34,923 bases of DNA from positions 1 through 34,923 of the IMG/VR virus record IMGVR_UViG_3300009026_000028; one strand, written 5' to 3'. Made by a program: the position numbers and the translations under genes. The DNA is from a virus. This document shows, one piece after another, positions 44 to 29,235 of this stretch (within the stretch, counting starts at the first letter, position 1; the number at the start of each line of letters is the position of its first letter). The notes under the pieces were generated by a model that saw only the letters and a list, made by a program, of their open reading frames with translations, was not told where the DNA came from and made no database searches.

Positions 44-595
44 ATGACAAAAGACATTAAAGCATTAATGCCAAGTAAAGCTTGGAATAAATTCGAGGAA
101 GCACGACCGTACGTCACCACATCAGGTTTCGCGGTTGACGAGGATGGACGATTTCCAATTCTCTACCGTGGGCCAAACGTCCGCAGTGCACGTAATTGCT
201 GGAGTTTGCCCAGCGGGTTGCACGAGATCGGGTACACGCTCGGTCAACAATTCGAGATTGAACTCGCTGAGGAGCTCAATATTGACGGAGTTGGACAGCG
301 ATACATCCAGATGTTCAATTATGAAAACATTTCACCCGCTGACAACTGGCACTGGGTTATCAATGTCGGTGTTATTCCAGTACGCTGTAAGTTTAAGGAC
401 ATGGTCAACAAGGAACCAGAGAAGCACACACAACTTCGACTGGTTACGCTAACAGAGATGTACGCAATACCAATGACCCAGTGGGCACCGGGTTTAGGTT
501 CTGCTCTGATCACTAACAGCCGTCGTATTCACGAGACCGTTAGTGCAGTTTCACGCGATCTAAGGAGTTCAAATGCGGCACATCGTATCTCATAG
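44..595 (+). CDS. Nudix hydrolase family protein (degenerate Nudix box)
   Basis: A 183-residue protein with a Nudix-type core. Strand and loop residues GFAVDEDGRF (28-37) lead to the box at residues 58-80, which begins SGLHEIG and ends IELAEELNI. The spacing fits the consensus Gx5Ex7REUxEExGU, and the metal-binding EE pair (76-77) is kept. The first E is Y, the R is I and the final G is N, so the box is degenerate. Nudix enzymes cleave nucleoside diphosphates linked to another moiety. The substrate here cannot be told. AAGGA lies about 13 nt upstream of the ATG, a loose ribosome site. The gene overlaps the next by 23 nt, which links it to the thymidylate-synthase-fold enzyme and hints at dNTP pool cleansing (inference). 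The first 18 bases of the window could be the last codons and TGA of a preceding gene. Confidence 0.7.
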   Translation: MTKDIKALMPSKAWNKFEEARPYVTTSGFAVDEDGRFPILYRGPNVRSARNCWSLPSGLHEIGYTLGQQFEIELAEELNIDGVGQRYIQMFNYENISPADNWHWVINVGVIPVRCKFKDMVNKEPEKHTQLRLVTLTEMYAIPMTQWAPGLGSALITNSRRIHETVSAVSRDLRSSNAAHRIS

Positions 596-1337
596 CACAA
601 GTCAAGGTTGGCTAAGCGTTCTACGCGATGTACTCCTCAACCATGAGTATGAAACAAGCCCACGCGGATTTAAAATACGTGAGGTTATTGATTACTCCAT
701 CGAGATTGGCGATCCTAGCAGCAAGCCGGTTACGTGTGGACACCTCGACATCGACAGCAAGATTCAGCGGTACACTGGGGCTGAACTGGAGCTCTATGAG
801 AGCAAGACGTTATTGGCCACTGAATTTGCTAGGGCAAGTAAGTTTTGGCTGACAATCGCCAATCCGGATGGCACGGTAAATAGCAACTACGGTTACTTGG
901 CGAAGTCAGTGATGGATGGTGGACAGGCTGGTGTATCAGGTTGGCAATGGACAATTAACACGCTGCGCAAGGATATGGATAGCCGTCAGGCGATTATTCA
1001 CTACAACCGGCCAATGCACATGAATCCGGAGACGAAGGATTTCCCATGCACCATTTGCACCCAGTACTTCATCCGCGAGAATAAGTTGCACGCCATCACC
1101 TACATGCGCAGCAATGATGCTCGACGTGGATTACCATACGACCTGTCGTGGTTCTGCAAGACGATGGAAGATATGCTGGTAGAGCTCAAGGAGTACTATC
1201 CTAATCTAACCCTAGGCAAGTATCGACACCATGCCGGTAGCATGCATCTCTACGAGCGGGATTGGCCTGAGGTAGAGAAGATTTTGTCACAGGTTCAAAT
1301 CATCACCAACGAGGTGGTATTAAACAAAGGATTTTAA
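573..1337 (+). CDS. Thymidylate synthase-fold enzyme, probable dCMP (hydroxy)methylase
   Basis: A 254-residue member of the thymidylate synthase / dCMP hydroxymethylase family. Visible motifs are SRQAIIHYNRP (137-147), the catalytic Cys in FPCTICTQYF (Cys159), the phosphate-binding MRSND (178-182), GLPYD (186-190) and HLY (225-227). The spacing Cys159 to Asp190 (31 residues) equals the E. coli ThyA spacing from its catalytic Cys to Asn177. That Asn contacts the uracil ring of dUMP. In T4 dCMP hydroxymethylase it is Asp, as here, so dCMP is the likelier substrate. Whether the product is methyl- or hydroxymethyl-dCMP cannot be read from sequence. The start is well supported by AAGGAG at 562-567, five bases before the ATG. 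It sits in a + strand gene run with a Nudix hydrolase and a kinase fusion, which fits nucleotide remodelling. Confidence 0.85.
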   Translation: MRHIVSHSTSQGWLSVLRDVLLNHEYETSPRGFKIREVIDYSIEIGDPSSKPVTCGHLDIDSKIQRYTGAELELYESKTLLATEFARASKFWLTIANPDGTVNSNYGYLAKSVMDGGQAGVSGWQWTINTLRKDMDSRQAIIHYNRPMHMNPETKDFPCTICTQYFIRENKLHAITYMRSNDARRGLPYDLSWFCKTMEDMLVELKEYYPNLTLGKYRHHAGSMHLYERDWPEVEKILSQVQIITNEVVLNKGF

Positions 1338-1778: not shown

Positions 1779-2795
1779 ATGAAAGTTGCAATATTCGGCG
1801 ATCTACAGGCTTGTGAGGGTGGTGAACGACTCCGTTCTGATGGCTCAATTCCTCTTCAAAGATGGCGAATCTCCAAGTTTTATAGGGACTTGCGACGAAT
1901 CGTTGACGACAACGGATGCGTGGTCGTTGTTGATCTTGGAGACACTACCGATGACCGGAGTAGTATCCCAATCCCAACAATAGATGTGCTCATGGAGGGC
2001 ATTCTGTCACTCCGTGAACTCCTCTGTTGGAAGCTCATTGGTAACCATGAGCAGTTCTATAGGTCGCCGGATATGCATCCTGGTAGGTTATATTCTGAGG
2101 TGTTCCAAGTAGTGGCGCGTTCTGTGTCACAGGAGATTGGCGGAGTCTCCTGCCTATTCTCATCGTATAACGACAACCACGACGAGATTATGGAGGACAT
2201 CCACAACTTCCTAGGGAAGAACAAGGGCAGGAAGAAAGTATTGTTTGGCCACTGGGGAGTGCATGGTACCGCCATTAACGGTGGTACGCTGGAGGGTGGC
2301 ATGAACAGGGAGTATCTCAATGACAATTTTGATGCCGTATTTCTTGGCCATATTCATAAGCCACAGCGGATGGATAAAATATGGATTGTTGGTAGCCCGT
2401 TTCAACAGAATTTTGGCGAGAGCGGTGAGCGAAAATGGGTGCTCATCTTTGACACGGAGACGTTGGAAGTATCACCAGTCTATCTTGACGACTACCCAAA
2501 ATACCATGCCATTCCCGTTGGCGAGTTTAACAAATTGAAGACAATCGGCGAGGATAGGTACAAGGTTATTTGCCGATCGCCAGAGGAATCGCAGTCAGTG
2601 CTTGACCACCCAGCTGGTGGTCAGGTTACAATTATCACCGACTATGAGAAGGGTAACACCGCTAATGAATCGGTTGGTTCGTCGGCATTAATATCTCACG
2701 AGGAAATGATTGAGCGATGGCTGCAAAAAACTCCCGCACCGCATGGTTGGGATGTTCTTGGTCTTAAATCGTTTGGAGCTGAATTGCAGAAATGA
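1779..2795 (+). CDS. SbcD/Mre11-like calcineurin-family phosphoesterase (T4 gp47-like)
   Basis: A 338-residue metallophosphoesterase. The metal-binding motifs appear in order: GDLQ (7-10), GDTTD (54-58), GNHE (88-91), GHWG (157-160) and GHIH (190-193). This is the five-motif pattern of the Mre11/SbcD/T4 gp47 nuclease group. After the catalytic core there is a roughly 120-residue C-terminal region, where family members cap the nuclease and bind their ATPase partner. In that family the protein works with a SbcC/Rad50/gp46 ATPase to process DNA ends. No such partner is in this window, and it could lie beyond the left edge. The start codon has no obvious Shine-Dalgarno sequence. Its stop overlaps the next gene as ATGA, so the two are translationally coupled. 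A simple DNA or nucleotide phosphoesterase is the alternative. Confidence 0.85.
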   Translation: MKVAIFGDLQACEGGERLRSDGSIPLQRWRISKFYRDLRRIVDDNGCVVVVDLGDTTDDRSSIPIPTIDVLMEGILSLRELLCWKLIGNHEQFYRSPDMHPGRLYSEVFQVVARSVSQEIGGVSCLFSSYNDNHDEIMEDIHNFLGKNKGRKKVLFGHWGVHGTAINGGTLEGGMNREYLNDNFDAVFLGHIHKPQRMDKIWIVGSPFQQNFGESGERKWVLIFDTETLEVSPVYLDDYPKYHAIPVGEFNKLKTIGEDRYKVICRSPEESQSVLDHPAGGQVTIITDYEKGNTANESVGSSALISHEEMIERWLQKTPAPHGWDVLGLKSFGAELQK

Positions 2796-3799
2796 ACACA
2801 CCACGCCACCCTATATTTGTTTTCTACGGTCATGACGGTGCCGGTAAAACCACGCTCATTGAGCGTATGCAGAGGATCTATGGCGGTAAGCGTATCCATC
2901 TCGGATACAGATGGAAGAGTGAGATGTTTCGCTATCACCTCGCCGCTATTCGTCGTGCCGTGAGATTCGCCTCCACCGAGGCACCAGTTTACCTAGACCG
3001 TGGTTGGCTCTGCGAGAACGTCTATGCTGATGAATACCGCGGTGGTAGTCAATGGCCGCACATGGGACGAATGTTAGACCGCGTCCTGTTGGCCTATGGT
3101 GCATTGAATGTTGTTTGTAGCTTAGACCCAACTACCGCCGGTAGTAATCACCTGGTCAACACCGCCGATAGACACGAGTTATTCGCGGATGGCATGGACC
3201 GTGTCGCCTCACGCTACCTCAAGTTACTCGCTGGTAGAAACGATTTACTTCCACGAACCTCATACCCAGATGACCTGGGTACGCACATCTTTGACCGCCG
3301 ACATGATTGGATACGGCACAACTGGAAAGCCGAACCGGTTGATGAATACTGCCGGTATTTGATGACAAAGTGGATTGGTAATGAGAGTCTCGCTGGAGGG
3401 TATCTACCTAGCAGGGAACACCGTAACATCGTCGGTAATACCGCAAAATACGGGAAATACATGATTTGCGGTGATAGGACCAAAACGGATGAATACCGCC
3501 GTGGTTGGCCATTTATTGAGTACCAGCATAGTAGCCTCTACCTGGCCCAAGCATTACACCGAATTAATCTGCCGGAGCATCTCACCGCATACACTAATGT
3601 AGACTGCATTGAACGGTGGTACGATCACCCTCGATTCAAGGATCGTAGATACCTGGCTCTCGGAAGAAATGCCTCAGATGTGCTAACCGAGGCCGGCATA
3701 GAGCACGGGATGGTACCACACCCAAGCTACCATAAACGGTTTTGCCATGATAACGAGGCGTACGCAAAGCTAATTGAGGAAAATCTATATGAAAAATAA
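2792..3799 (+). CDS. P-loop (thymidylate-kinase-like) kinase fused to a uracil-DNA-glycosylase-like domain
   Basis: A 335-residue two-domain protein. The N-terminal domain (about 1-190) has the Walker A motif GHDGAGKTT (13-21) and LDRGW (68-72), where thymidylate kinases carry their DR motif. This suggests a nucleotide or nucleic-acid kinase. The C-terminal domain (about 215-335) follows the order of the UDG superfamily: strand plus loop YMICGDRT (223-230), GWPF (238-241), YTNVD (267-271), LALGRNA (288-294) and HPSYHKRF (310-317). HPS is the classical motif 2 of UDGs. Motif 1 is not canonical, lacking the GQDPYH or GEAPG form, so glycosylase activity is uncertain. The gene is coupled by ATGA to the SbcD-like gene. 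The fusion could be a dNMP kinase with a base-sensing or base-modifying domain. The kinase call is firm; the UDG-like fold is inferred. Confidence 0.75.
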   Translation: MNTPRHPIFVFYGHDGAGKTTLIERMQRIYGGKRIHLGYRWKSEMFRYHLAAIRRAVRFASTEAPVYLDRGWLCENVYADEYRGGSQWPHMGRMLDRVLLAYGALNVVCSLDPTTAGSNHLVNTADRHELFADGMDRVASRYLKLLAGRNDLLPRTSYPDDLGTHIFDRRHDWIRHNWKAEPVDEYCRYLMTKWIGNESLAGGYLPSREHRNIVGNTAKYGKYMICGDRTKTDEYRRGWPFIEYQHSSLYLAQALHRINLPEHLTAYTNVDCIERWYDHPRFKDRRYLALGRNASDVLTEAGIEHGMVPHPSYHKRFCHDNEAYAKLIEENLYEK

Positions 3800-4303: not shown

Positions 4304-4380
4304 AGAATAACTATCCACGATGACGTGCGGGTGTATTCTCCTAGCATGATCAACAAAATTGTTCAAGTAGGGTGGCCATC

Positions 4381-5004
4381 ATGAGAGGCCCAGACAAGGA
4401 TAACCCATTATACGCGTTAGAGATAGCAAGGAATATAGCCAAGTGGATGTGGAAGGACGGTAAAAATACCGCCCAGATTGCTGACAGACTTGAGTGCAGT
4501 CGTAGCCAGGTGATTTCCTACATGATCGCAGTGCGAAAGACGGACAAGAAGTCGTTTCCATTGCGCTGGGCACACACTAAAAACGTTCGTGGTGGCCGCA
4601 GATTCTGGGAGAATGAACGCGGTGCGATATTGAAGCACCTTAACTCCGGAGTCACAGCTAAACAATTGTCCGTGGTGTATGGTGTTACGCGAGAACGAAT
4701 TCGCCAGGTGATAGCTGGTTACGGAATTGACTACCAGCAATACATCGACAGCTACAGGCTGGTAAAAGAACGACGCTCGTGTGCAAATGAGCTGAAACGG
4801 AAGGAGGAGTTGACGAGACGATCGCTGGCAAAAAAGATGCCGAAGATCCTCGAGGTCTCCAATCTCTACGCCTCTGATTTAACCTACCACGAGATAGAGG
4901 ATAGACTAGGATTTAAACGTGGACACCTGGCCTCAAAGATCGCCAGATACCGTGCCATTTGCCCAGACCTATTCCCAATAAGAAAGCCACGGGTATTACG
5001 GTAG
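4381..5004 (+). CDS. Three-HTH DNA-binding protein with a sigma-70 region 4-like motif
   Basis: A 207-residue protein with three helix-turn-helix candidates. They are TAQIADRLECSRSQVISY (30-47), TAKQLSVVYGVTRERIRQV (92-110) and LTYHEIEDRLGFKRGHLASK (167-186). The middle one contains GVTRERIRQ, the hallmark of sigma-70 region 4.2, which reads the -35 element. Basic linkers separate the motifs and the C-terminus is basic (RKPRVLR). The ATG at 4381 is preferred over an in-frame GTG at 4372 because AGGG at 4369-4372 gives an 8 nt spacing. The likely role is transcription control, for instance a middle or late regulator or sigma-like factor. A homing-type or resolvase-like protein is less likely because no catalytic motif is present. 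Confidence 0.7.
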   Translation: MRGPDKDNPLYALEIARNIAKWMWKDGKNTAQIADRLECSRSQVISYMIAVRKTDKKSFPLRWAHTKNVRGGRRFWENERGAILKHLNSGVTAKQLSVVYGVTRERIRQVIAGYGIDYQQYIDSYRLVKERRSCANELKRKEELTRRSLAKKMPKILEVSNLYASDLTYHEIEDRLGFKRGHLASKIARYRAICPDLFPIRKPRVLR

Positions 5005-5024
5005 CTTTCCACGGTGCGCTGGAC

Positions 5025-5435
5025 ATGTATTCTCCAGCTGTGCAATGCAAGCTTAAATCCTCACAGATCAACAAACTACCAACAGCGGTAAGACATTACG
5101 TCCAGGCATGGATGAAGGATAAGAATAGCCGCCGTGTCTTCTACCGTGAGGTGGCCTTGGTCAATATTGAGGAGGATGTCCGTTACACGGCGTTCAACCT
5201 CGAATCAGGTCTAGCAGCCACAGGACGAGCTGGCGGTGAGTGGAATGGCCAAGGAGATTTTACACCAGGCAAAGAATTATCGCTGCCGCGTGGAGTTGCT
5301 ATGGTTGCCCATGGAATATATGGCGGTGCTTGGTATTTGACGGTCTATTGGAACCCAAACAGCATGAGACCTCAGTACACCACGTTCCTAGGCAATGCCC
5401 AAGGCCCGTCTAACCAAACACTGAGCCTCATCTAA
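5025..5435 (+). CDS. Hypothetical protein
   Basis: A protein of 136 residues from the ATG at 5025. The frame extends back to a TTG at 4959 inside the HTH gene, with no ribosome site there. The sequence has a basic N-terminal third (QCKLKSSQINKLPTAVRHYVQAWMKDKNSRR) and a glycine- and aromatic-rich second half (GRAGGEWNGQGDF, HGIYGGAWYLTVYWNPNSM) that looks beta-stranded. No family is recognised. It lies 21 nt after the HTH gene and its 3' end overlaps the end of the converging 847-residue repeat protein by 48 nt. Confidence 0.6.
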   Translation: MYSPAVQCKLKSSQINKLPTAVRHYVQAWMKDKNSRRVFYREVALVNIEEDVRYTAFNLESGLAATGRAGGEWNGQGDFTPGKELSLPRGVAMVAHGIYGGAWYLTVYWNPNSMRPQYTTFLGNAQGPSNQTLSLI

Positions 5436-7931
5436 CATAGCCTTTGAGGCAGTTTGGCTTGGATAGGCGCGGGAAAGAAATCGATGTATCAGGCTGTCAG
5501 CTAGTTCAGCATAATCTGGATCGTCCATGCTTAAATTGTCAGCGGCGTCATTGGCGATAGTGCTGTATCCACCACCGTCAATGAACCGCGAAAGGACAAC
5601 GGCATATAGGACAACGGCGTATACGCCACAATCACCTATCAATCTAGCGCTAACTCTGATTTCATTTAATCCGTCTAGTGGAATATTGGCGATGTTTTTA
5701 CCAGAACCGTCGGCTCTAACACGGTCCACAGGTACTCCAATGTCGGTTAAGGCATTAACCGTTCTATCCATCAAATCGATGAGGCATGGATTAGCGTTAG
5801 GAAGAGCGGCGTGAACGTCCACTGACTCGTCTAAGACGGCCTTTGAAGCGGTCTCTGATGGAAACATTTGAGCCATAATCATAGACACGAAATAGTTAAC
5901 AAGCTCATCGTCGATCTTACCACTTTCGTCTGGTGGGACGGTTATATGTCCTAATGGCACTGACGTCTTCCGCCTATTTCCCGGTTGAAGACCGACCGTT
6001 GATGAATCGATTGGCTCCTCAGCTGATATTGTTCCGCTGGAATAGGAGTTGACCATCAGTCTAATTCGACGACCACTACTAAATCCTATGGTGCGTAGTG
6101 ACGGGGAGATGCATGGCTTCGACACACCCAGCGATATGATGCTGGTGGAGAGTTCGTTCAGAATCCTTTCAACGTAGGAGTCAACGTGTTCCACCTCATC
6201 ATAGAATCCCTCGGCTAAAACCGCGTTATTTGCGGTACCTGTTGGGTCTGCGGCAGCTAGAAAATCGTCTACTCTCAATAACCGTAAGTTAAGTCCAGTC
6301 CAATAGAATTTGTTATATGGATAACCTGAGATGTCGGTATGGCCATCTCTAGCAATTTCAATTCGCACACCGCCGACAGTCTTTATGATCAAATCTTTCT
6401 CTTGACTATCCTCTGATGTGTATTCGACGTCGTGCGCGTCGAGAATATTGAGGATGATCCTGCTGTTCTCCTTAAATTTGCCATACCGTAGATCTTCACC
6501 TTCGTCGATTACGGCGGTATCTGCGGCGCCGCTAGGATCAATGATTGCTAGCAATTTAGAAGGTGGAAATTCCTCCTCAGGATTAGTGCCAAAGTATACC
6601 TGTTCTGCTCCGTGGTAAATTGCAATCAGTCCGTCGTTGTTGTACACTGAGGCTAGAGGTTGACCATTAACCACTACTCGCCATATTCCTGTGTTAATCC
6701 GTATATTGCGGTAAGTAACTCCAGCGCTATCGCAGACATCTCCAATGTAGTCTAGATTGCGTTTGGCTGAATCTGGTAGGTGGTATGCGTTGCTGCTCTC
6801 ATTAAGTACCGCGCTAGCAGCTGTCTCAGACGGGAAAATCTGAACCGTAAGCAAGGACACAAACTGATCCACTAGGTTGCTGTCAACAGAGTGCAAGACA
6901 TCGTCAGGTATGATTACTGAATCTCGAACCGCACCGTCGTATTGGAACTCACCAGGGCGTACATCAGATCTGGGTCGGTCATTGAGCAGCTCCGCGGTGA
7001 TACGACGCCCAATGTAGGTGCTTACCCAGAATCTAATTCGGCGACTGCCACAAAATTTAATGATGGCGGTGTTGCCGGTGTTTAACAGCATTTCAGCGTC
7101 TCTACCCATCGATTTCACATACAGGCTAAAACTGTTAGCCATGGCTCTCACGTAATTCTCTAGGCCAACAGTAGCCTTGTCGGCAGTATAATCATATCCT
7201 GATTCGCCTAGCACGGAATGCACCGCCACACGCTCTGGGTATAGAGTAGAAATCATGGTGTCAAAATGCCGCAAATAATCTACCTGCTCCACGAATAGAT
7301 ATTCATAGTCGGTTTGCTTAATGCCACCACCATCGATAGATAGGAATAGCTTGCGATTTCCGCAGAGAAAATGAAAAATTGTTTCGCCTATTACAACCCA
7401 CCGCGAGTTTACCGTGCGTGTCGGTTCAACACTATAGGCTATGCCGTATTTGTCGAGAACCTTCGTAAACAGACTTACATACCACTCTACTTTGCTCCCG
7501 GTCTCAGATTCACCAAGTAACGCATCCACGGCGGCGCGCTCAGGATAGAAATACGCAATCGCGGAGTCAACAAGCCCATCCACCTGCGCCATGTCAACCG
7601 GATTATCGCCAACCTCAACGGCGGCTATGCCAACCGATGGTCCGCGCTCCCCAGTGTGAAGAAGCAGGGTGCGTGATTCTGTCGGCTCAATAACCACAAT
7701 AGAACCGGTTCTAAATGATGCCACCCAAATCTCGAATAGCCGTCCATCCTCGAACGATATCAGCCTAATGGTGCGCGTTGTTCTGACGATTTTGGCCTCT
7801 ACACCGTAGGACTGCAGCCTGGATATGAAAGCAGACGCGATTGAGGTGAGCCAGTCGGCCATATTACCAGCCTCCTGGTCCGCGGTGGACTTGCTCAGCA
7901 CCACATATTTAGTATCTGTCACCTCTGGCAT
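5388..7931 (-). CDS. 847-residue protein of seven divergent tandem repeats, function unknown
   Basis: A large acidic protein made of repeats, each closing with a recognisable helix of the form YPxxTAxxAVLxES. These helices lie at about residues 129-142, 231-244, 366-379, 465-478, 562-575, 690-703 and 823-836, so units are about 98-136 residues long. Within units one sees an open strand pattern, for example SGRRIRLMVNSYSSGTISAEE (619-639) against SRRIRFWVSTYIGRRITAEL (296-315), and a preceding helix ending in a G followed by two strands. The second and fifth to sixth units are closest. No enzyme motif, signal peptide or membrane segment is visible. It is the last gene of the - strand small-gene train, 27 nt after the nuclease gene, with TATTATA just before the ATG. 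It could be a scaffold, a decoy or a structural protein. Confidence 0.85.
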   Translation of the reverse strand: MPEVTDTKYVVLSKSTADQEAGNMADWLTSIASAFISRLQSYGVEAKIVRTTRTIRLISFEDGRLFEIWVASFRTGSIVVIEPTESRTLLLHTGERGPSVGIAAVEVGDNPVDMAQVDGLVDSAIAYFYPERAAVDALLGESETGSKVEWYVSLFTKVLDKYGIAYSVEPTRTVNSRWVVIGETIFHFLCGNRKLFLSIDGGGIKQTDYEYLFVEQVDYLRHFDTMISTLYPERVAVHSVLGESGYDYTADKATVGLENYVRAMANSFSLYVKSMGRDAEMLLNTGNTAIIKFCGSRRIRFWVSTYIGRRITAELLNDRPRSDVRPGEFQYDGAVRDSVIIPDDVLHSVDSNLVDQFVSLLTVQIFPSETAASAVLNESSNAYHLPDSAKRNLDYIGDVCDSAGVTYRNIRINTGIWRVVVNGQPLASVYNNDGLIAIYHGAEQVYFGTNPEEEFPPSKLLAIIDPSGAADTAVIDEGEDLRYGKFKENSRIILNILDAHDVEYTSEDSQEKDLIIKTVGGVRIEIARDGHTDISGYPYNKFYWTGLNLRLLRVDDFLAAADPTGTANNAVLAEGFYDEVEHVDSYVERILNELSTSIISLGVSKPCISPSLRTIGFSSGRRIRLMVNSYSSGTISAEEPIDSSTVGLQPGNRRKTSVPLGHITVPPDESGKIDDELVNYFVSMIMAQMFPSETASKAVLDESVDVHAALPNANPCLIDLMDRTVNALTDIGVPVDRVRADGSGKNIANIPLDGLNEIRVSARLIGDCGVYAVVLYAVVLSRFIDGGGYSTIANDAADNLSMDDPDYAELADSLIHRFLSRAYPSQTASKAMLDEAQCLVRRALGIA

Positions 7932-9119: not shown

Positions 9120-9325
9120 CCTGCCTCCTGCGTGGCCATCTCGTCTAGCGCCGCGAAATATGCGTCCTTAGCCGTGTTAAAATCTCCGAGCAATTCCTCG
9201 TTGGTCAAGGCGCGCAAAACTTGCTGCCCATCCCTGTCTTCCACCACCGCGCTAGGTCTGTATTTCGATCGGTGAAATTCAATTTCAAACGTGCATCGTA
9301 GCTTCTCTAGTTTCCACTTGTTCAT
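9116..9325 (-). CDS. Hypothetical protein
   Basis: A protein of 69 residues. The N-terminal half is beta-like and basic (WKLEKLRCTFEIEFHRSKYRP) and the C-terminal half an acidic helix (NEELLGDFNTAKDAYFAALDEMA). AGGAGA precedes the ATG, and ATGA overlaps join it to both neighbours. No function is recognised. Confidence 0.6.
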   Translation of the reverse strand: MNKWKLEKLRCTFEIEFHRSKYRPSAVVEDRDGQQVLRALTNEELLGDFNTAKDAYFAALDEMATQEAG

Positions 9326-9627
9326 CCTAATCTCCTTTTTGTCTGCAATCGCTCTAGTTCTTCAAGCTCAGGCAGTGTGATGGTACTTTCGCATTCCTTT
9401 GACACCAGATATGAAAACCGCACATCCTCTTTATTGGTTAACCCGTGCAAATTTTCTTTTGCCCGGTCACGCTCGCGAACCTTGCGTGCTACGGCAGCGC
9501 AACCTGCTTCAATCAGTTTCTTCTCGGTCGGCGTTAGGTCACTCCAATGTGCAGCGCAAAAACCTTTCTTACGAACCGCCCTTCCTCGGGCCTCTAGGTA
9601 TATCTGGCCTAAACTCTTCTTTTTCAT
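9322..9627 (-). CDS. Hypothetical helical protein
   Basis: A protein of 101 residues, strongly charged and mostly helical (GQIYLEARGRAVRKKG, LTPTEKKLIEAGCAAVARKVRERDRAKENL, LPELEELERLQTKRR). No catalytic pattern is visible. It overlaps its upstream neighbour as ATGA and its downstream neighbour in the same way, placing it in the coupled early train. The basic N-terminus and acidic C-terminus resemble small regulatory phage proteins, but nothing specific can be claimed. Confidence 0.6.
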   Translation of the reverse strand: MKKKSLGQIYLEARGRAVRKKGFCAAHWSDLTPTEKKLIEAGCAAVARKVRERDRAKENLHGLTNKEDVRFSYLVSKECESTITLPELEELERLQTKRRLG

Positions 9628-9950
9628 ACGGCGTCAACCTCTCCGATGGCCCTATCCACTAGATTCACCAACCGGATATCATCCAGCTTGTTTTCACGCA
9701 TGTTACCCTTATAGGCTCCATAAGGGATGTATTTCTTTGCCGACTGCAATAGACCTGTAAGTTCCTTTATTCTCGCCTCCTGGGCGTCACGAACCTGGCG
9801 CAGGGCTTCAAAGATTACTGGTTCTGCGCCGGTGGCACTATAGCTGGAGGATGTCCTGCCTAATCCGAATGTGATGTCTATGGCCTCATCGTCTATCCTC
9901 TTACTCGTGGATTCAGCGATGCTCCGTAGTTCGTTGTCAGACTGTTTCAC
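9624..9950 (-). CDS. Hypothetical protein
   Basis: A protein of 108 residues starting at GTG, with AGGAGA four bases upstream. A central helix (EALRQVRDAQEARIKELTGLLQSAKKYI, shown here in part) is coiled-coil-like. The C-terminal piece (DIRLVNLVDRAIGEVDAV) is another helix. The start overlaps the stop of the 54-residue gene upstream as GTGA. Function unknown. Confidence 0.6.
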   Translation of the reverse strand: MKQSDNELRSIAESTSKRIDDEAIDITFGLGRTSSSYSATGAEPVIFEALRQVRDAQEARIKELTGLLQSAKKYIPYGAYKGNMRENKLDDIRLVNLVDRAIGEVDAV

Positions 9951-10111
9951 ATGGTCTCCTTATTTAACTTCTCTAACTCGGCCAAAGTCTCAGGATCCTT
10001 TAGAATCTCAACCACCCTGCTGAAGATCTTTGCCTGCAGTTCAATTGGACAAAGTTGCAATATTGCTAGGCAGAATATTCTTTCAACCGTCGCAGATAGT
10101 AGATGTCTCAT
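9947..10111 (-). CDS. 54-residue helical microprotein
   Basis: A short reading frame of 54 codons beginning MRHLLSATVERIFCLAILQL and ending LEKLNKETM. It is predicted to be almost entirely helical. Its TGA overlaps the GTG start of the next gene by the GTGA arrangement used throughout this train, and it fills the gap between its neighbours. The ribosome site is weaker (GGAAA close to the ATG). The hydrophobic, Cys-containing N-terminal helix (about 12-23) could associate with membrane or a partner. Confidence 0.55.
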   Translation of the reverse strand: MRHLLSATVERIFCLAILQLCPIELQAKIFSRVVEILKDPETLAELEKLNKETM

Positions 10112-10123
10112 ACGTTTCCATCT

Positions 10124-10390
10124 TTACCGGTATTGACAGGCCCTTGCTCGCCGTGTTTCATCTACCGTGTTCCAGTAGCGATCCTTGCAACGGGTGCAAC
10201 AGAACGCTTGCTGATAGGACCTTTTCTGCACCCGTCTCTCACAGGTTGGGCAGGTTATAGTCATACCAACCTTAGCCGATTTAGACGCGTCATAGGTGGC
10301 GATCATACCGCCTACCCGACAGGTAACGCTACCTTCATCACACTGGTCGTCCAATGCCTCCGCCTCTGTCACATGGTTGTCATTGTTCAT
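10124..10390 (-). CDS. Small zinc-finger-like protein
   Basis: A protein of 88 residues from the ATG at 10390, chosen because GGAGA lies 5 nt upstream and because the ATG overlaps the stop of a preceding 30-residue gene as ATGA. An upstream in-frame ATG at 10447 has no ribosome site. CPTC (47-50) and CCTRC (64-68) form a four-Cys zinc ribbon or treble-clef pattern within ITCPTCERRVQKRSYQQAF. Small zinc-ribbon phage proteins often bind nucleic acid or host polymerase. The role here is unknown. Confidence 0.65.
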   Translation of the reverse strand: MNNDNHVTEAEALDDQCDEGSVTCRVGGMIATYDASKSAKVGMTITCPTCERRVQKRSYQQAFCCTRCKDRYWNTVDETRRARACQYR

Positions 10391-10479
10391 TTGTCTCTCC
10401 AGCAGGAGAAACAATAGCAAATCGTAAAACACGCCGCTATTGAACATGTTATAATTGCATCATAAACGCTAGTATTCAT
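10387..10479 (-). CDS. 30-residue Cys-rich hydrophobic microprotein
   Basis: A 30-codon frame beginning MNTSVYDAIITCSIAACFTI and ending in WRDK. It is supported by AAGGAG a few bases before the ATG and by an ATGA overlap with the zinc-finger gene. The hydrophobic span of about 17 residues, with five Cys, could insert in the membrane. The frame is very short, so it could instead be a leader peptide that couples translation of the downstream gene. Confidence 0.45.
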   Translation of the reverse strand: MNTSVYDAIITCSIAACFTICYCFSCWRDK

Positions 10480-10652
10480 TTTCTCCTTTTAGATTGGTGA
10501 ACCGCCTGAATCTATTCGGCTGACACCCACTCAGTTGGGAGCATTATGCACCTAGCACAGCACCCGCTGTGATTTGGCACCGCCTTATTCCGCCGTTGGC
10601 ACGGTTCGTATAGTAGAATACACGGTTGGCGGTGGGTGGAAAGAACTTAGAC
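10480..10652 (-). other. Non-coding gap, probable leader or promoter zone of the - strand gene train
   Basis: 173 bases without a supportable gene on either strand. A perfect 6 bp hairpin (CACAGC at 10556-10561, loop ACCC, GCTGTG at 10566-10571) lies in the middle with no T-run, so it is not a clear intrinsic terminator. On the - strand, CATAAT lies just downstream of the hairpin and could be a -10 element, but no good -35 is visible. No tRNA fold was found. Confidence 0.3.
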
Positions 10653-11045
10653 CTACCGCAACTCTGCCTTCCAACCAACGTCGTCCACCGTGATGCTACG
10701 AACACTCACCAAACGTGGCTTGGACACCTCAGCGTGCACCGTGTTAAACAGCGGCACCTGACCATAGTACCGGTCATGGTGCACAGAGATGAGCCGCCTC
10801 TCAGTCCTATGTGCCTCAGCCCTATCCTCGTACCAGCTGATAGACCGGATACGCACCGGTGATGAACACTTGGCCATTGCTTGGGCCAAGTAGAGGTATA
10901 GATCCGCGCGGTGGTGGTCTATGCGACCAAACTCAGAACGCTTCACCCGGTTAAGGTGGGTGGAGAAGCGACCAATGCGGTTGGTAACGCCATAGTAGAC
11001 CGCCATGTCGTGGATGGGGCAGAGGATTTCGTAGACGTGGTGCAT
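10653..11045 (-). CDS. GIY-YIG nuclease domain protein
   Basis: A protein of 130 residues. The GIY-YIG signature appears as HVYEI (3-7) and VYYGVTN (16-22), followed by the conserved Arg and His (R26, H30 in GRFSTHL) and a candidate catalytic Glu (E82 in HRTERRLI). The domain is complete but there is little beyond it for DNA recognition. It begins 1 nt after the double GIY-YIG gene ends and has AGGTG four bases before the ATG. It is probably a homing-type or stand-alone nuclease. Confidence 0.75.
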   Translation of the reverse strand: MHHVYEILCPIHDMAVYYGVTNRIGRFSTHLNRVKRSEFGRIDHHRADLYLYLAQAMAKCSSPVRIRSISWYEDRAEAHRTERRLISVHHDRYYGQVPLFNTVHAEVSKPRLVSVRSITVDDVGWKAELR

Positions 11046-11046
11046 G

Positions 11047-12159
11047 CTACACCTGCGCCCTTCCGAAGGAGAATGACATATAGATTAGCTTGCGCTTAGA
11101 GATACTGTACGCCGCATCCACCTCGTCCAGCTTGCGGAGATGCTCCAACACCTCAGCCTCAGGTGCGCCAGATTTATCGAGCCGCTTAGCCTCCTTGGTG
11201 ATAGCCTTGCGGTCAAGGAAGCGCTGCGCCTTCTGTGTCGGTGTGAGGTGTGACCACGGTGTGTCGCGTTTGTAGGCGGGAATTAGGCCAGCCTTGCGCT
11301 TCTCGTAGGTCTCGAGGTAGAGCCGCTTACGCTCCTCCATCTGCTCAGGCGTAAACTGCTTGTGCTCGGTGACGTAGGGACCACGTTTTTTACCTCTGGC
11401 TCTCTCGCCGATGGCCGCCTTCTCCTCGTCGGTGAGGTTACGGCGTGGTTTGCTAGCTCCGAGTTCGTGTCCACCAACACCTGACAATTTGTTATAAAAA
11501 CCTTCTGTACCGTAAGCAGCAATCCGCTTAGCGATCTCCGCCTGCTCGACGAGAATGACCTCCCATTTCTTTAATCCTGACGCTAGTTTTATGATTTTCC
11601 AATTCTTGTCATATATTTTGGAATACATTTCGTTATGACCACAATTAATCGGCGGGTCTCCTCTGAGCCACTTCTTTAATCCAGTCTCGTGCATCGCCAT
11701 GCGACACCAGCCATCATCCCTGTCAGAATTGTATTCTTCAGCACCTTCACCGATATAGACCGGGATGTCGTCCACGGTTATAGCATAAACGCAGCACAGC
11801 TTGTCCCATGTCTTTAAACCAATCTTACCGCCACCACGAATGTTGATGGTTGGTTTTACTAACCCGATAAGTCTAGCCTCCTCTGCTTCAGCGGATGATT
11901 GAGCATTGCGCCCGTCCCACTCCGCGATCTTCTCGAACCTGTAACCAGGATTCTCTAGCAGGTAGTCATATAGTTCGTGATGACCAGTTCCTGGAGCGTG
12001 CGTACTAATAGACTTCTGGTGTGACTGGATTCGGTCGTAAAATACCCTATTCCATTTAGTGAACTGAGTCTTACCCTTGCCGATGTATAGAACCTCTCCA
12101 GTATTGCTAACGATTCGGTAAACGTAGTGAACTTCTCTTTCGTGCCTTTGTTTGCTCAT
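11047..12159 (-). CDS. Protein with two tandem GIY-YIG nuclease domains, homing endonuclease-like
   Basis: A 370-residue protein. Domain 1 (about 10-110) has HYVYRI (11-16), LYIGKGK (24-30), R43 and H47, and a Glu cluster EAEEARLIGL (91-100). Domain 2 (about 120-225) has CVYAI (123-127), VYIGEGA (134-140), R153 and H157, and VEQAEIAKR (204-212) followed by FYNKL. Past 235 comes a basic, NUMOD3-like stretch (RRNLTDEEKAAIGERARGKKR), which in homing enzymes contacts DNA, then a charged helical tail. It lies downstream of the capsid gene, separated by its terminator, the usual setting for a free-standing homing gene. CCTCC rather than GGAGG precedes the ATG, so the ribosome site is absent. Confidence 0.75.
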   Translation of the reverse strand: MSKQRHEREVHYVYRIVSNTGEVLYIGKGKTQFTKWNRVFYDRIQSHQKSISTHAPGTGHHELYDYLLENPGYRFEKIAEWDGRNAQSSAEAEEARLIGLVKPTINIRGGGKIGLKTWDKLCCVYAITVDDIPVYIGEGAEEYNSDRDDGWCRMAMHETGLKKWLRGDPPINCGHNEMYSKIYDKNWKIIKLASGLKKWEVILVEQAEIAKRIAAYGTEGFYNKLSGVGGHELGASKPRRNLTDEEKAAIGERARGKKRGPYVTEHKQFTPEQMEERKRLYLETYEKRKAGLIPAYKRDTPWSHLTPTQKAQRFLDRKAITKEAKRLDKSGAPEAEVLEHLRKLDEVDAAYSISKRKLIYMSFSFGRAQV

Positions 12160-15489: not shown

Positions 15490-16443
15490 ATGCCAATGCG
15501 AAACTCAGGCTACGCCTGTCTGAATCTAAGTACATCTACGAAGATGCGAACCGTCCGTGCCGGTGTCTACGACAAGCTACGCCAGGCCAACCGGGCTGAC
15601 GCCCTATTCAAGCTTTTTGATGTAGCAGCCGACAATCTACGCGACCTCCAACTCATTGTCAACTGGAACAGCGATAATAACTGTAACGTTTATAGGATTT
15701 CGTCGAGCCTCATTCCACTTATGAGTTACATGCCGCAGGAGGATTGGGACGAATTAATCTCCTACTTCTATTTGGACCTGCGGAATGCATGCACAGTGTA
15801 CGATGAATCTACGGCGCTGTCCAACATTGGTTGCCGGTTCTCCATCCATCCATCTAATTTTAATAGCCTTGGAGCGGAAAAGCAGTCTACCGTCGATACC
15901 ACCATTCTCGATCTTAATCGGCATGGTGAGATGATTGAACGGCTGGGTCTCACCGGTAGGTTAGCATGTCCTATGTGCCTGCACCTATCGAACGGCGCAA
16001 CCAAGGATCCTGACGCTCTCGTCTATCGCATCCGCAAATCAATGGAACGGCTATCACCTGTCGTGCTCAATAACCTATGTTTTGAAACCGAGGATCGTGG
16101 CATGTGGCGCTGGCAAAACATTAAAAAGTATTTTCCGGATATGCCAATCATCCTTGACACACTCCACCATGCCTGTAACAATGAAGGTGAATCGGTGGAG
16201 GTGGCGCTAGATGCCGTTGCTCCAACCTGGGGAAATCACGTGCCGCTCATTCACCATAGCACGAGTAAAAATTGGGATAACCAAAAGGACCGGCGATCGC
16301 ACTCAGACTACGCTAATCCACTGCCTAGTTGCCTAGTGGACCATGGTGTTGTTTTTGACGTTGAACTCGAGGCTAAGAAAAAGGATCTAGCTTGGATTCA
16401 GTTTACCGCGGAACACGGCCTCGTCTATGGCTATAGATTATAA
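15490..16443 (+). CDS. UV-damage endonuclease, UvdE/UvsE family
   Basis: A 317-residue protein covering the whole family length. The N-terminus has GYACLNLS (7-14) and KMRTVRAG, then NLRDLQLIVNWN and YRISSSLIPLMS. The middle has FSIHPSNFNSL and DLNRHGEM, and the C-terminal third has LNNLCFETED and DTLHHACN, with metal-ligand His, Glu and Asp in the order seen in UVDE TIM barrels. UVDE cuts DNA 5' of UV photoproducts to start alternative excision repair. No ribosome site is visible before the ATG. It is a lone + strand gene between the head module and the fibre module, and its 3' end overlaps the converging gene by 6 nt. A general sugar-isomerase-like TIM barrel is the alternative but less likely. 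Confidence 0.85.
   Translation: MPMRNSGYACLNLSTSTKMRTVRAGVYDKLRQANRADALFKLFDVAADNLRDLQLIVNWNSDNNCNVYRISSSLIPLMSYMPQEDWDELISYFYLDLRNACTVYDESTALSNIGCRFSIHPSNFNSLGAEKQSTVDTTILDLNRHGEMIERLGLTGRLACPMCLHLSNGATKDPDALVYRIRKSMERLSPVVLNNLCFETEDRGMWRWQNIKKYFPDMPIILDTLHHACNNEGESVEVALDAVAPTWGNHVPLIHHSTSKNWDNQKDRRSHSDYANPLPSCLVDHGVVFDVELEAKKKDLAWIQFTAEHGLVYGYRL

Positions 16444-19935: not shown

Positions 19936-19936
<1 letters not shown>
19097..19936 (-). CDS. Lectin-like tail protein, paralogue 1 of 3
   Basis: A 279-residue protein, first of the three tandem paralogues. It has the conserved pattern FFTGLDADGITYGSSGKIKR, FCGASLTDCLRPQI, FVSGDYVETGSSGGLTGDG and the C-terminal LYSRMQTFQTSLGRQV. The variable centre carries Ser/Thr-rich strands (NRSLALYASGTLAYYF). 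Its ATG overlaps the stop of the collagen-like fibre as TAATG, so it should be expressed with the fibre. No strong ribosome site of its own is seen. Confidence 0.7.
19098..19128. repeat. 31-bp direct repeat copy B at a paralogue junction
   Basis: Identical over 31 bp to 18251-18281, at the junction between paralogues 1 and 2. It encodes the conserved C-terminus GRQV and supplies the ribosome site for the following gene. Confidence 0.85.
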
Positions 19937-22476
<2,540 letters not shown>

Positions 22477-26373: not shown

Positions 26374-26877
26374 TCAAATCGAGTTAAACCATAGACGAGC
26401 TAGCGCTTCATCTGTATTTCCTGGTCCGGTTGCTCCAGTAACTCCAACCACTCCAGTAGCGCCGGTTACACCGACTCCAGTAGCGCCGGTTATGCCGGTT
26501 GCTCCAGTAACTCCAACCACTCCGGTTGCGCCGGTTATGCCGGTTGCACCATTTACACCAGCCACTCCGGTTGCGCCGGTTATTCCGGTAACTCCTATGG
26601 CTCCGGTTGCGCCAGTAACACCGGCAGATCCAGCAACGCCGGTGGCTCCAGTAACTCCTGTGGCACCTCTTGCACCGGTAGCTCCGGTAACTCCGGTAGC
26701 TCCGGTAACTCCTGTGGCACCTCTTGCACCGGTAGCTCCGGTAACTCCTGTGGCACCATCTGATCCGGCGCCTGATCCACCGCTACTTGATCCTCCGGCG
26801 CCTGTGGCGCCAGTAGCCCCAATGTAAGAGCTCAGCGACCTAAAATCAGGCCTATTTGTATTGTGCCAACCAGACAT
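26374..26877 (-). CDS. Short collagen-like protein
   Basis: A protein of 167 residues. A short polar N-terminus ([19 protein letters not shown]) leads into a Ser/Gly spacer and about 40 Gly-X-Y triplets, mostly GAT, GVT and GAR. The C-terminus is only about 16 residues ([15 protein letters not shown]), with no clear globular head. It is probably a virion fibre or fibre cap. It shares its triplet style with the long fibre and with the protein at 28645. No ribosome site is obvious before the ATG. Confidence 0.7.
26415..26820. repeat. Collagen-coding tandem repeat DNA, copy 2
   Basis: Nine-base periodic DNA coding Gly-X-Y triplets on the - strand, with exact internal duplication of a block encoding [12 protein letters not shown]. 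It is close in codon use to the long repeat at 20626-22098, so recombination between them is possible. Confidence 0.75.
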
Positions 26878-27912: not shown

Positions 27913-28371
27913 TCAACAACTTTTTACTAGCCGATTAGTAGCAGATTTCACGAGTCGCTTAGAGACCTTGGTAACCTTTACTCCGTATTTCTTGAATATT
28001 AGTTTGCTGCTACTTCGGTCTCTCTCATATTCCTCAAGGTAGAGCACGTTCTTTACGCCGAAAGCTGAGAGGGCCTGCGCGCAAGATACACACGGTATCG
28101 TAGTACAGGCCACAGTGTGTATCTCTCGTCCCTGGGCAGCCCGTAGAAGATTGATCTCAGCGTGAATGCAGTATAATCTGCGCTTGTCGCGATTCTTCCA
28201 GAAACTAAGCGGCGCGTTTACTTTTGTCTTGAGTCCATTATATCCAGTACCGACAACCATGCCGCTGGCGTCTATGCCAACCGCGCCAACTTGACGGTGT
28301 AAATCCTCGGACCTCAGGCTAGCCGCCATAGCAATTAGCATGAGATAAACTTTACGGTCAATTCTCTTCAC
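27913..28371 (-). CDS. dCMP deaminase family zinc enzyme
   Basis: A 152-residue protein. The zinc and catalytic motifs are CIHAEINLL with H70-A-E72 and TTIPCVSCAQAL with PC94xxC97. The N-terminus (SLRSEDLHRQVGAV and GTGYNGL) matches deoxycytidylate deaminases, which convert dCMP to dUMP. The GTG start at 28371 is preferred over ATG at residue 11 because residues 2-10 align with the family's first helix. In T4 this enzyme works alongside dCMP hydroxymethylase, which fits the dCMP-type enzyme at 573. It is far from that gene here. No ribosome site is visible. Confidence 0.85.
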   Translation of the reverse strand: MKRIDRKVYLMLIAMAASLRSEDLHRQVGAVGIDASGMVVGTGYNGLKTKVNAPLSFWKNRDKRRLYCIHAEINLLRAAQGREIHTVACTTIPCVSCAQALSAFGVKNVLYLEEYERDRSSSKLIFKKYGVKVTKVSKRLVKSATNRLVKSC

Positions 28372-28405: not shown

Positions 28406-28645
28406 ATGAGTTCGAGTTTCAATAACAAAAATTTTGCTCCAAACAGTCTTGCTGAAAAGGTTATCCAAGTAGATAACGCGGTTGAGTCAGTAACATCATT
28501 TACGTATTTAGACGCTGGTACCGTTAATGAGCGCATCTCGACGCTAACGAAGAGCAGTGCCTCACTCGGTCTATCCTACGTTGATACCTTTACATACGCT
28601 GGAACTCCAGGATTTTACCGCGTCACTAACATCACGAGGTCCTAA
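28406..28645 (+). CDS. Small fibre-module protein
   Basis: A protein of 79 residues, mostly Ser, Thr, Asn and Val with beta-like strands ([31 protein letters not shown]). Size and composition suit a virion component near fibres. It opens the + strand fibre module and overlaps the collagen-like gene as TAATG. No ribosome site precedes its ATG. No family is recognised. Confidence 0.6.
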
Positions 28646-29235
28646 TGAATTTCTCAGACGTTCCAATTCTCGACACGATTTACGCTCGTAAGTCAGCCCT
28701 CGCAGGAGTCGCTGGAGTTACCGGTGCAACCGGAGTAACCGGTGCAACTGGCGCTGGAGTTACCGGTGCAACCGGAGTAACCGGTGCAACTGGCGCTGGA
28801 GTTACTGGCGCTACAGGTGTAGTTGGCGTAACCGGAGTAACCGGCGTAGTCGGTGTAACCGGTGCAACTGGCGTAACTGGTCCGCAAGGAACACCGTCAA
28901 GCGTTCTAATAACGACAAGCGCCGCTGGAAACCAAACCGTGACATTTCCAACCGGTGGAATAAATCAAGTTTTAAAAATCGACGCTGCCGCTGGAGCTGG
29001 ATCGTACAACTACAAAGTTATTCTCGGTGCGCCAGCTAGTGGATCAGGACAATTAACGCTTGTTAGACTAGAGATGCCGGCAAGCACCAACCCTGTTATA
29101 GAATTTAGAAATCTTACAATCGGCGGTACGAACCTACTGGACGTCACCGGAATAGCGACGGCGTCAAGCGTGTCTGCCGCGTTCTACTACTATGGATCAA
29201 ATTGGATTCAACTCTACGCAACCTATGACCCTTAA
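28645..29235 (+). CDS. Collagen-like tail fibre protein with C-terminal beta head
   Basis: A protein of 196 residues. After a 19-residue leader come about 22 Gly-X-Y triplets (GVTGATG style, about 20-85), then a globular C-terminal domain with strands [23 protein letters not shown] and [21 protein letters not shown]. The head resembles small trimeric fibre-tip domains. GAGG precedes the ATG by 5 nt and the start is coupled to the gene upstream. Confidence 0.7.
28702..28896. repeat. Collagen-coding tandem repeat DNA, copy 3
   Basis: Nine-base periodic DNA on the + strand, with a 45-bp block repeated exactly at its start. It is the third of three such regions and lies in the opposite orientation to the other two. 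Confidence 0.75.

Follow-up and report, generated by a model that had tools for sequence, protein, structure and literature searches.

The window analyzed here is the whole 34,923-nucleotide stretch of the IMG/VR virus record IMGVR_UViG_3300009026_000028. Near its beginning, an open reading frame on the plus strand starts with ATG, overlaps the 3′ end of an upstream SbcD-like gene by four bases, and encodes a protein of 335 amino acids. Its translation, a full-length AlphaFold model (pLDDT 85, pTM 0.86), and full-length relatives confirm that it consists of a P-loop domain resembling thymidylate kinases (TMPK-like) and, after it, a bona fide domain of the UDG superfamily. The parts of this fusion gene and the associated genes of the window are as follows.

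2792..3799, plus strand: whole fusion gene, dNMP-kinase-like plus UDG-superfamily domain
2810..3391, plus strand: N-terminal P-loop kinase domain (approximately residues 7-200), YorR/thymidylate-kinase-like by structural matches and by PHROG 761 “thymidylate kinase” (3.7e-6)
2828..2854, plus strand: Walker A motif, residues 13-21 (GHDGAGKTT)
2996..3001, plus strand: TMPK-type DR motif, residues 69-70 (D69-R70)
3413..3796, plus strand: C-terminal UDG-superfamily domain (approximately residues 208-335), by profile, Pfam, AlphaFold model, Foldseek, and structure comparison
3470..3475, plus strand: UDG motif A, G227-D228, whose acid aligns with UdgX E52
3509..3514, plus strand: P240-F241, where UDGs have the base-stacking Phe; opposite LPFVG of UdgX in the alignment
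3596..3598, plus strand: N269, at the position of the Asn that binds uracil (UdgX N91); opposite ITNAV of UdgX in the alignment
3719..3742, plus strand: UDG motif B, residues 310-317 (HPSYHKRF), with H310 at UdgX H178 and R316 at UdgX R184
573..1337, plus strand: thymidylate-synthase-family gene with a T4 gp42-type signature (Cys-Thr...Asp), predicted dCMP hydroxymethylase
44..595, plus strand: Nudix-like gene, weak match to PHROG 1198 MutT/Nudix (0.0037)
27913..28371, minus strand: dCMP/cytidine deaminase family gene, in another part of the window (PF00383, 1.3e-16)

The N-terminal domain is a TMPK-like dNMP kinase by its Walker A motif, its DR motif, and its overall fold. Both motifs lie where a sequence-only reading of this DNA had placed them, and they are invariant in 38 relatives (G13, D15, G16, G18, and K19 in Walker A; D69 and R70, then E75 and Y78, in and after the DR motif). 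In the AlphaFold model, the closest structures to the kinase domain are YorR (3kb2, Z 15.9) and thymidylate kinases (Z of about 14). Profile comparisons match the domain along most of its length, with E values of about 1e-20 to 1e-30, to stand-alone phage dNMP kinases that include those of pelagiphages, Microbacterium phage Didgeridoo, and Vibrio phage VAP7. Phage thymidylate/dNMP kinases of this kind (PHROG 761; pelagiphage, Microbacterium phage, and YorR types) share the entire N-terminal domain with its Walker A and DR motifs; the ones compared here, unlike the fusion, consist of this domain only and lack a UDG-like part.

The C-terminal domain is a member of the UDG superfamily by fold, profile, and pocket residues. 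When an AlphaFold model of residues 199-335 (pLDDT 82.8, pTM 0.80) was compared with the PDB by Foldseek, the top 37 matches (E up to 0.001) were all UDGs, with family-4 UDGs and UdgX on top and a best E of 1e-5. This result bears out the UDG fold that the sequence-only reading had suggested from the segments YMICGDRT, GWPF, YTNVD, LALGRNA, and HPSYHKRF, which indeed run in UDG order through residues 223-317. A VIA comparison of the model with family-4 UDG/UdgX gave a Z of 10.6 and an rmsd of 3.2 over 125 residues. At the level of sequence, a profile built from 34 homologous C-terminal domains matched 27 family-4 UDG/UdgX sequences of solved structure in the PDB (E 1.5e-4 to 9e-4), and the Pfam UDG model (PF03167) was matched by 16 of the 34 family members (best 1.3e-8). 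The C-terminal domain of the window sequence by itself has no Pfam match, and the window protein used as a lone query gave no UDG signal in Pfam or PDB sequence searches and no relative in IMG/VR. Single-protein searches thus yielded little here, and an alignment of the family was needed to see the UDG signal. PADLOC returned mostly P-loop matches and nothing glycosylase-like.

A profile-profile alignment of the C-terminal domain with a UdgX/family-4 pair (E 1e-9) yields a map of individual residues. UdgX binds uracil through N91 and H178, uses E52 as the base, and touches the DNA backbone with R184 (PMC10359453); the stacking Phe carries no residue number in that source. Among 38 aligned relatives of the window protein, motif A retains the Gly in 37 and Glu or Asp in 36, the stacking Phe is present in 37, and the uracil-binding Asn is present in 37. 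Motif B retains its His in 37, its Pro in all 38, and its Arg in 37, with the same His-to-Arg spacing as in HPS(S/A)(L/V)(L/V)R184 of UdgX. The exceptions are two relatives without the motif-A acid, one without the Asn, and one without the His. These counts do not include 18 additional loci, for which a pattern-based tally of motif residues was unreliable. Motif A had been described earlier as noncanonical, and it is: the window protein has GDRT and its relatives have G[ED]xx, versus GEQPG or GEGPG in UdgX and family 4, yet the acid at the catalytic position is present.

The fusion protein therefore shares with family-4 UDGs and UdgX the fold, the motif order, the motif-A acid, the stacking Phe, the Asn, and the His and Arg of motif B, but it differs from them in being joined to a kinase, in its form of motif A (G[ED]xx instead of GExPG), and in being shorter. 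The alignment of C-terminal domains contains no conserved set corresponding to the four Fe-S cluster cysteines of family-4 UDGs. The KRRIH loop of UdgX, with its covalent His109, is also missing, and fewer residues separate the Asn motif from LGxxA. In the pairs that allowed measurement, dN/dS of the C-terminal domain is 0.04-0.44, similar to that of the kinase domain. Given this purifying selection and residues kept in 36-37 of 38 relatives, we conclude that the domain holds a conserved pocket and is not a relic. The same conserved residues suggest that it may be an active glycosylase, for which uracil excision is the predicted reaction.

Full-length relatives of the fusion are encoded by three sequenced phage genomes, namely those of Pseudoxanthomonas phage PW916, Stenotrophomonas phage AXL3 (gp29), and ctUtU524. 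These homologues are 25-29% identical to the window protein, adjoin the same pathway genes, and are recorded as thymidylate kinase or hypothetical only, or are unannotated; the PW916 gene (2319-3299 of our locus L002) is absent from the annotation of its record. In IMG/VR, the fusion occurs in dozens of contigs. Among 45 IMG/VR loci, most are full-length and five encode a short kinase only, without the UDG part. A scan of genome contigs revealed at least one fusion in contigs of metagenome-assembled genomes (a Gallionella MAG contig) and at least one kinase-only match. Most homologues carry the conserved UDG pocket, and thus they are not simple kinases with an unrelated extension. A scan with the C-terminal domain alone, for which the query was a closer subset of the alignment rather than the full diverse set, gave the same picture from the other side, as every match with the 5′ end of the gene present proved to be a fusion. 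Vibrio phage VAP7 was considered as a carrier on the basis of a weak full-length tblastn match and was rejected, because its kinase is a separate gene and its record showed no UDG-like domain. We found no prior description of a kinase-UDG fusion in the open-access literature searched. The fusion is a new joining of known folds, situated in a known kind of pathway.

The nature of that pathway is indicated by the thymidylate-synthase (TS) family gene, which adjoins the fusion in nearly every locus. The window copy matches the family in Pfam (1.1e-15) and is 30% identical to T4 gp42 (E 7e-24), the dCMP hydroxymethylase. As in gp42, the catalytic Cys of the aligned homologues is followed by Thr, and Asp takes the place of E. 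coli TS Asn177, in 47 of 47 loci. In contrast, TS relatives of the dUMP-hydroxymethylase type from SPO1-, ViI-, and M6-type phages have Asn at both positions (Cys-Asn...Asn). Those phages make hmU-derived DNA. Work on TS and gp42 indicates that Asp at position 177 steers the enzyme toward dCMP. Two other columns of the multiple alignment, those of E58 and Y94 in the window enzyme, look misaligned, and a pairwise alignment with gp42 puts a Glu and a Tyr at those positions. From these residues, describing the gene at 573-1337 as a thymidylate synthase is probably wrong. In the scan with the C-terminal domain alone, 32 of 33 matches adjoin an enzyme with the Cys-Thr...Asp pattern, and the remaining one adjoins a Cys-His...Asp enzyme.

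Other frequent neighbors of the fusion in its relatives are dCMP deaminase and NTP-PPase genes. The window has the deaminase and the weak Nudix match, and the Nudix-like gene may replace the NTP-PPase found in relatives. The predicted set of steps is the same as that of the T4 hmC pathway (gp42 dCMP hydroxymethylase, gp1 dNMP kinase, gp56 dCTPase, and cd dCMP deaminase), with hmC as the predicted product. We know of no glycosylase domain on the T4 kinase gp1. The dCMP-type neighbors support the role in DNA-base metabolism that had been proposed for the fusion at the outset, and this gene context argues for a kinase substrate of the dCMP type rather than dTMP.

Phage AXL3 provides a further indication. 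Only 2 of 37 restriction enzymes cut the phage DNA, both with A/T-only sites, and 35 were resisted; the AXL3 authors proposed altered G/C bases (PMC7504290). AXL3 also carries a separate ThyX, and its authors place gp28 and gp29 in thymidylate synthesis (PMC7504290). Taken with the gp42-type signature in all 47 loci, the restriction pattern indicates that modified dCMP is the most likely product of the pathway. The TS-family residues, the frequent deaminase and NTP-PPase neighbors, and the published data on restriction resistance and ThyX together argue for modified cytosine.

In the pelagiphages HTVC200P and S28C10, the kinase adjoins an Asp-type TS homologue and no UDG-like domain was found anywhere in their records. 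These kinase-only genomes, together with the five kinase-only IMG/VR loci, indicate that the UDG domain is accessory and not essential to the pathway. The “thymidylate synthase” of VAP7 (4341-5243 of our locus L004) likewise has Asp at the 177 position and adjoins the kinase and an NTP-PPase-like gene, and VAP7 is possibly another cytosine-modifying phage. A SAM methyltransferase gene is present upstream of the fusion near many fused loci (among our loci L007-L051) but is absent from all five kinase-only loci, although these numbers are small; the methyltransferase may act together with the UDG-type variant.

We tentatively favor a model in which the protein is a kinase for modified dCMP that also carries a glycosylase for the removal of uracil-type bases (U or hmU), operating in a phage cytosine-modification pathway. 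The neighboring gp42-like enzyme would make a modified dCMP (5-hydroxymethyl-dCMP), and the N-terminal dNMP kinase would phosphorylate this nucleotide and thus permit its entry into DNA. The C-terminal domain would be a minimal family-4-like UDG without an Fe-S cluster that still has the residues with which an active enzyme forms its pocket and contacts the backbone, and it would excise U, or hmU arising from deaminated hmC, from DNA. Such excision should be safe where the thymine of the phage is normal, and it could be useful while the dCMP/dUMP pool is rerouted. Because a uracil-type glycosylase would harm a phage with hmU but not a phage with modified cytosine, this activity fits the cytosine-modified setting. 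The fusion is probably not just an ordinary thymidylate kinase but both maker and checker of modified cytosine. A broader version, in which a nucleotide kinase with built-in glycosylase proofreading makes modified dCDP and removes the uracil-type by-product from either DNA or the nucleotide pool, has perhaps a modest chance of being correct.

Other functions for the UDG-like domain should be weighed against this model. SPO1-type and phiLo DNA polymerases, from phages with modified bases, also carry an N-terminal UDG-like domain on a DNA-synthesis enzyme, although there the partner is a polymerase and not a kinase. The domain of the SPO1-type CampHawk polymerase (9130-10959 of our locus L053) matches PF03167 at 3.2e-22, and the phiLo polymerase (9qhs) matches our C-terminal model with a Z of 9.1. 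By analogy with these family-A polymerases, the domain of the fusion might bind a base or abasic site without excision, positioning the kinase at replication forks or sensing modified DNA, and the fusion cluster is often close to DNA polymerase genes. SPO1 DNA contains hmU. However, the CampHawk domain keeps the acid but has Ser in place of the Asn and Met in place of the Phe, and thus has a degenerate pocket, whereas relatives of the fusion retain these residues. Binding alone is accordingly a minority prospect in our estimation. An active uracil-type glycosylase instead fits the retention of the pocket here, where T should be normal, its loss in CampHawk, and the occurrence of the C-terminal domain beside Cys-Thr...Asp enzymes. 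It is also conceivable, if rather doubtful, that the domain edits free nucleotides by hydrolyzing dUMP or hm-dUMP produced by deamination, so that the kinase cannot pass them on. Its fusion to a monophosphate kinase, the dCMP deaminase as a common neighbor, and the retained uracil-binding Asn and His positions would suit such a role, but R316 corresponds to a DNA-backbone contact of UdgX, and we know of no UDG-fold enzyme that prefers mononucleotides.

The role of the kinase can be questioned in a similar manner. An ordinary dTMP kinase in thymidylate supply, as printed for AXL3 gp29 (PMC7504290), with an incidental C-terminal domain, would agree with the structural likeness to thymidylate kinases. 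This is improbable considering that the neighboring “thymidylate synthase” is of the dCMP type in all aligned loci, that AXL3 has its own ThyX and resists enzymes with G/C sites, and that the C-terminal domain is under selection with a conserved pocket. The sequence-only reading had raised two options, one of which was a DNA-level kinase that would resemble the 5-hmdU DNA kinase (HMUDK) of M6-like phages, with the UDG-like domain flipping a hydroxymethyl base for the kinase to phosphorylate. Both proteins do place a P-loop kinase in a base-modification context, and here the kinase sits on a base-flipping fold in a hydroxymethylation setting. However, profile similarity to the HMUDK of an M6-like phage is limited to 23 columns around Walker A, and the window protein matches neither HMUDK Pfam model (PF18748, P-loop; PF18723, helical) at an E of 1, although both models match M6-like phage proteins as a control. 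Because the whole domain instead resembles stand-alone dNMP kinases, including those of pelagiphages without a UDG domain, a monophosphate kinase is much likelier, and we consider phosphorylation at the DNA level very improbable. The second option, a pool kinase with an added domain, fits better, with the amendment that its substrate is predicted to be cytosine-type, not thymine-type.

Phages with modified cytosine must make an altered nucleotide and avoid miscoding deamination products, and their DNA also comes under attack from host glycosylases such as Brig1. Brig1, compared here by description rather than sequence, shares with the fusion a UDG-superfamily fold and a link to hydroxymethylcytosine biology, but it is a host defense enzyme that excises glucosyl-hmC, is not phage-encoded, and has no kinase (PMC11078745). 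That a single phage enzyme unites the charging of nucleotides with a glycosylase fold whose pocket is intact suggests a physical coupling between synthesis and quality control. If the broader proofreading version of the model is correct, the protein would be a bifunctional enzyme of a new type and would give a virus with modified DNA a new means of guarding its base code. In practical terms, a “thymidylate kinase” beside a “thymidylate synthase” in these phages is probably a pair of mislabeled cytosine-pathway genes.

Several other genes in the window merit brief description. A UvdE-type UV endonuclease gene (PF03851, 4e-31) is located at 15490-16443 on the plus strand, and the product of 11047-12159 (minus strand) has a weak endonuclease match (PHROG 1111, 5.7e-5) and the look of a GIY-YIG-type nuclease. 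An 847-residue protein encoded at 5388-7931 (minus strand) is built of recurring similar segments and has no Pfam or PHROGs match. Long collagen-like GATGVTG repeats are present in the proteins encoded at 19936-22476 and 26374-26877 (both minus strand) and at 28645-29235 (plus strand). Antisense to 19936-22476 runs a long open frame of PV/PT repeats, which is likely an artefact of the repeats.
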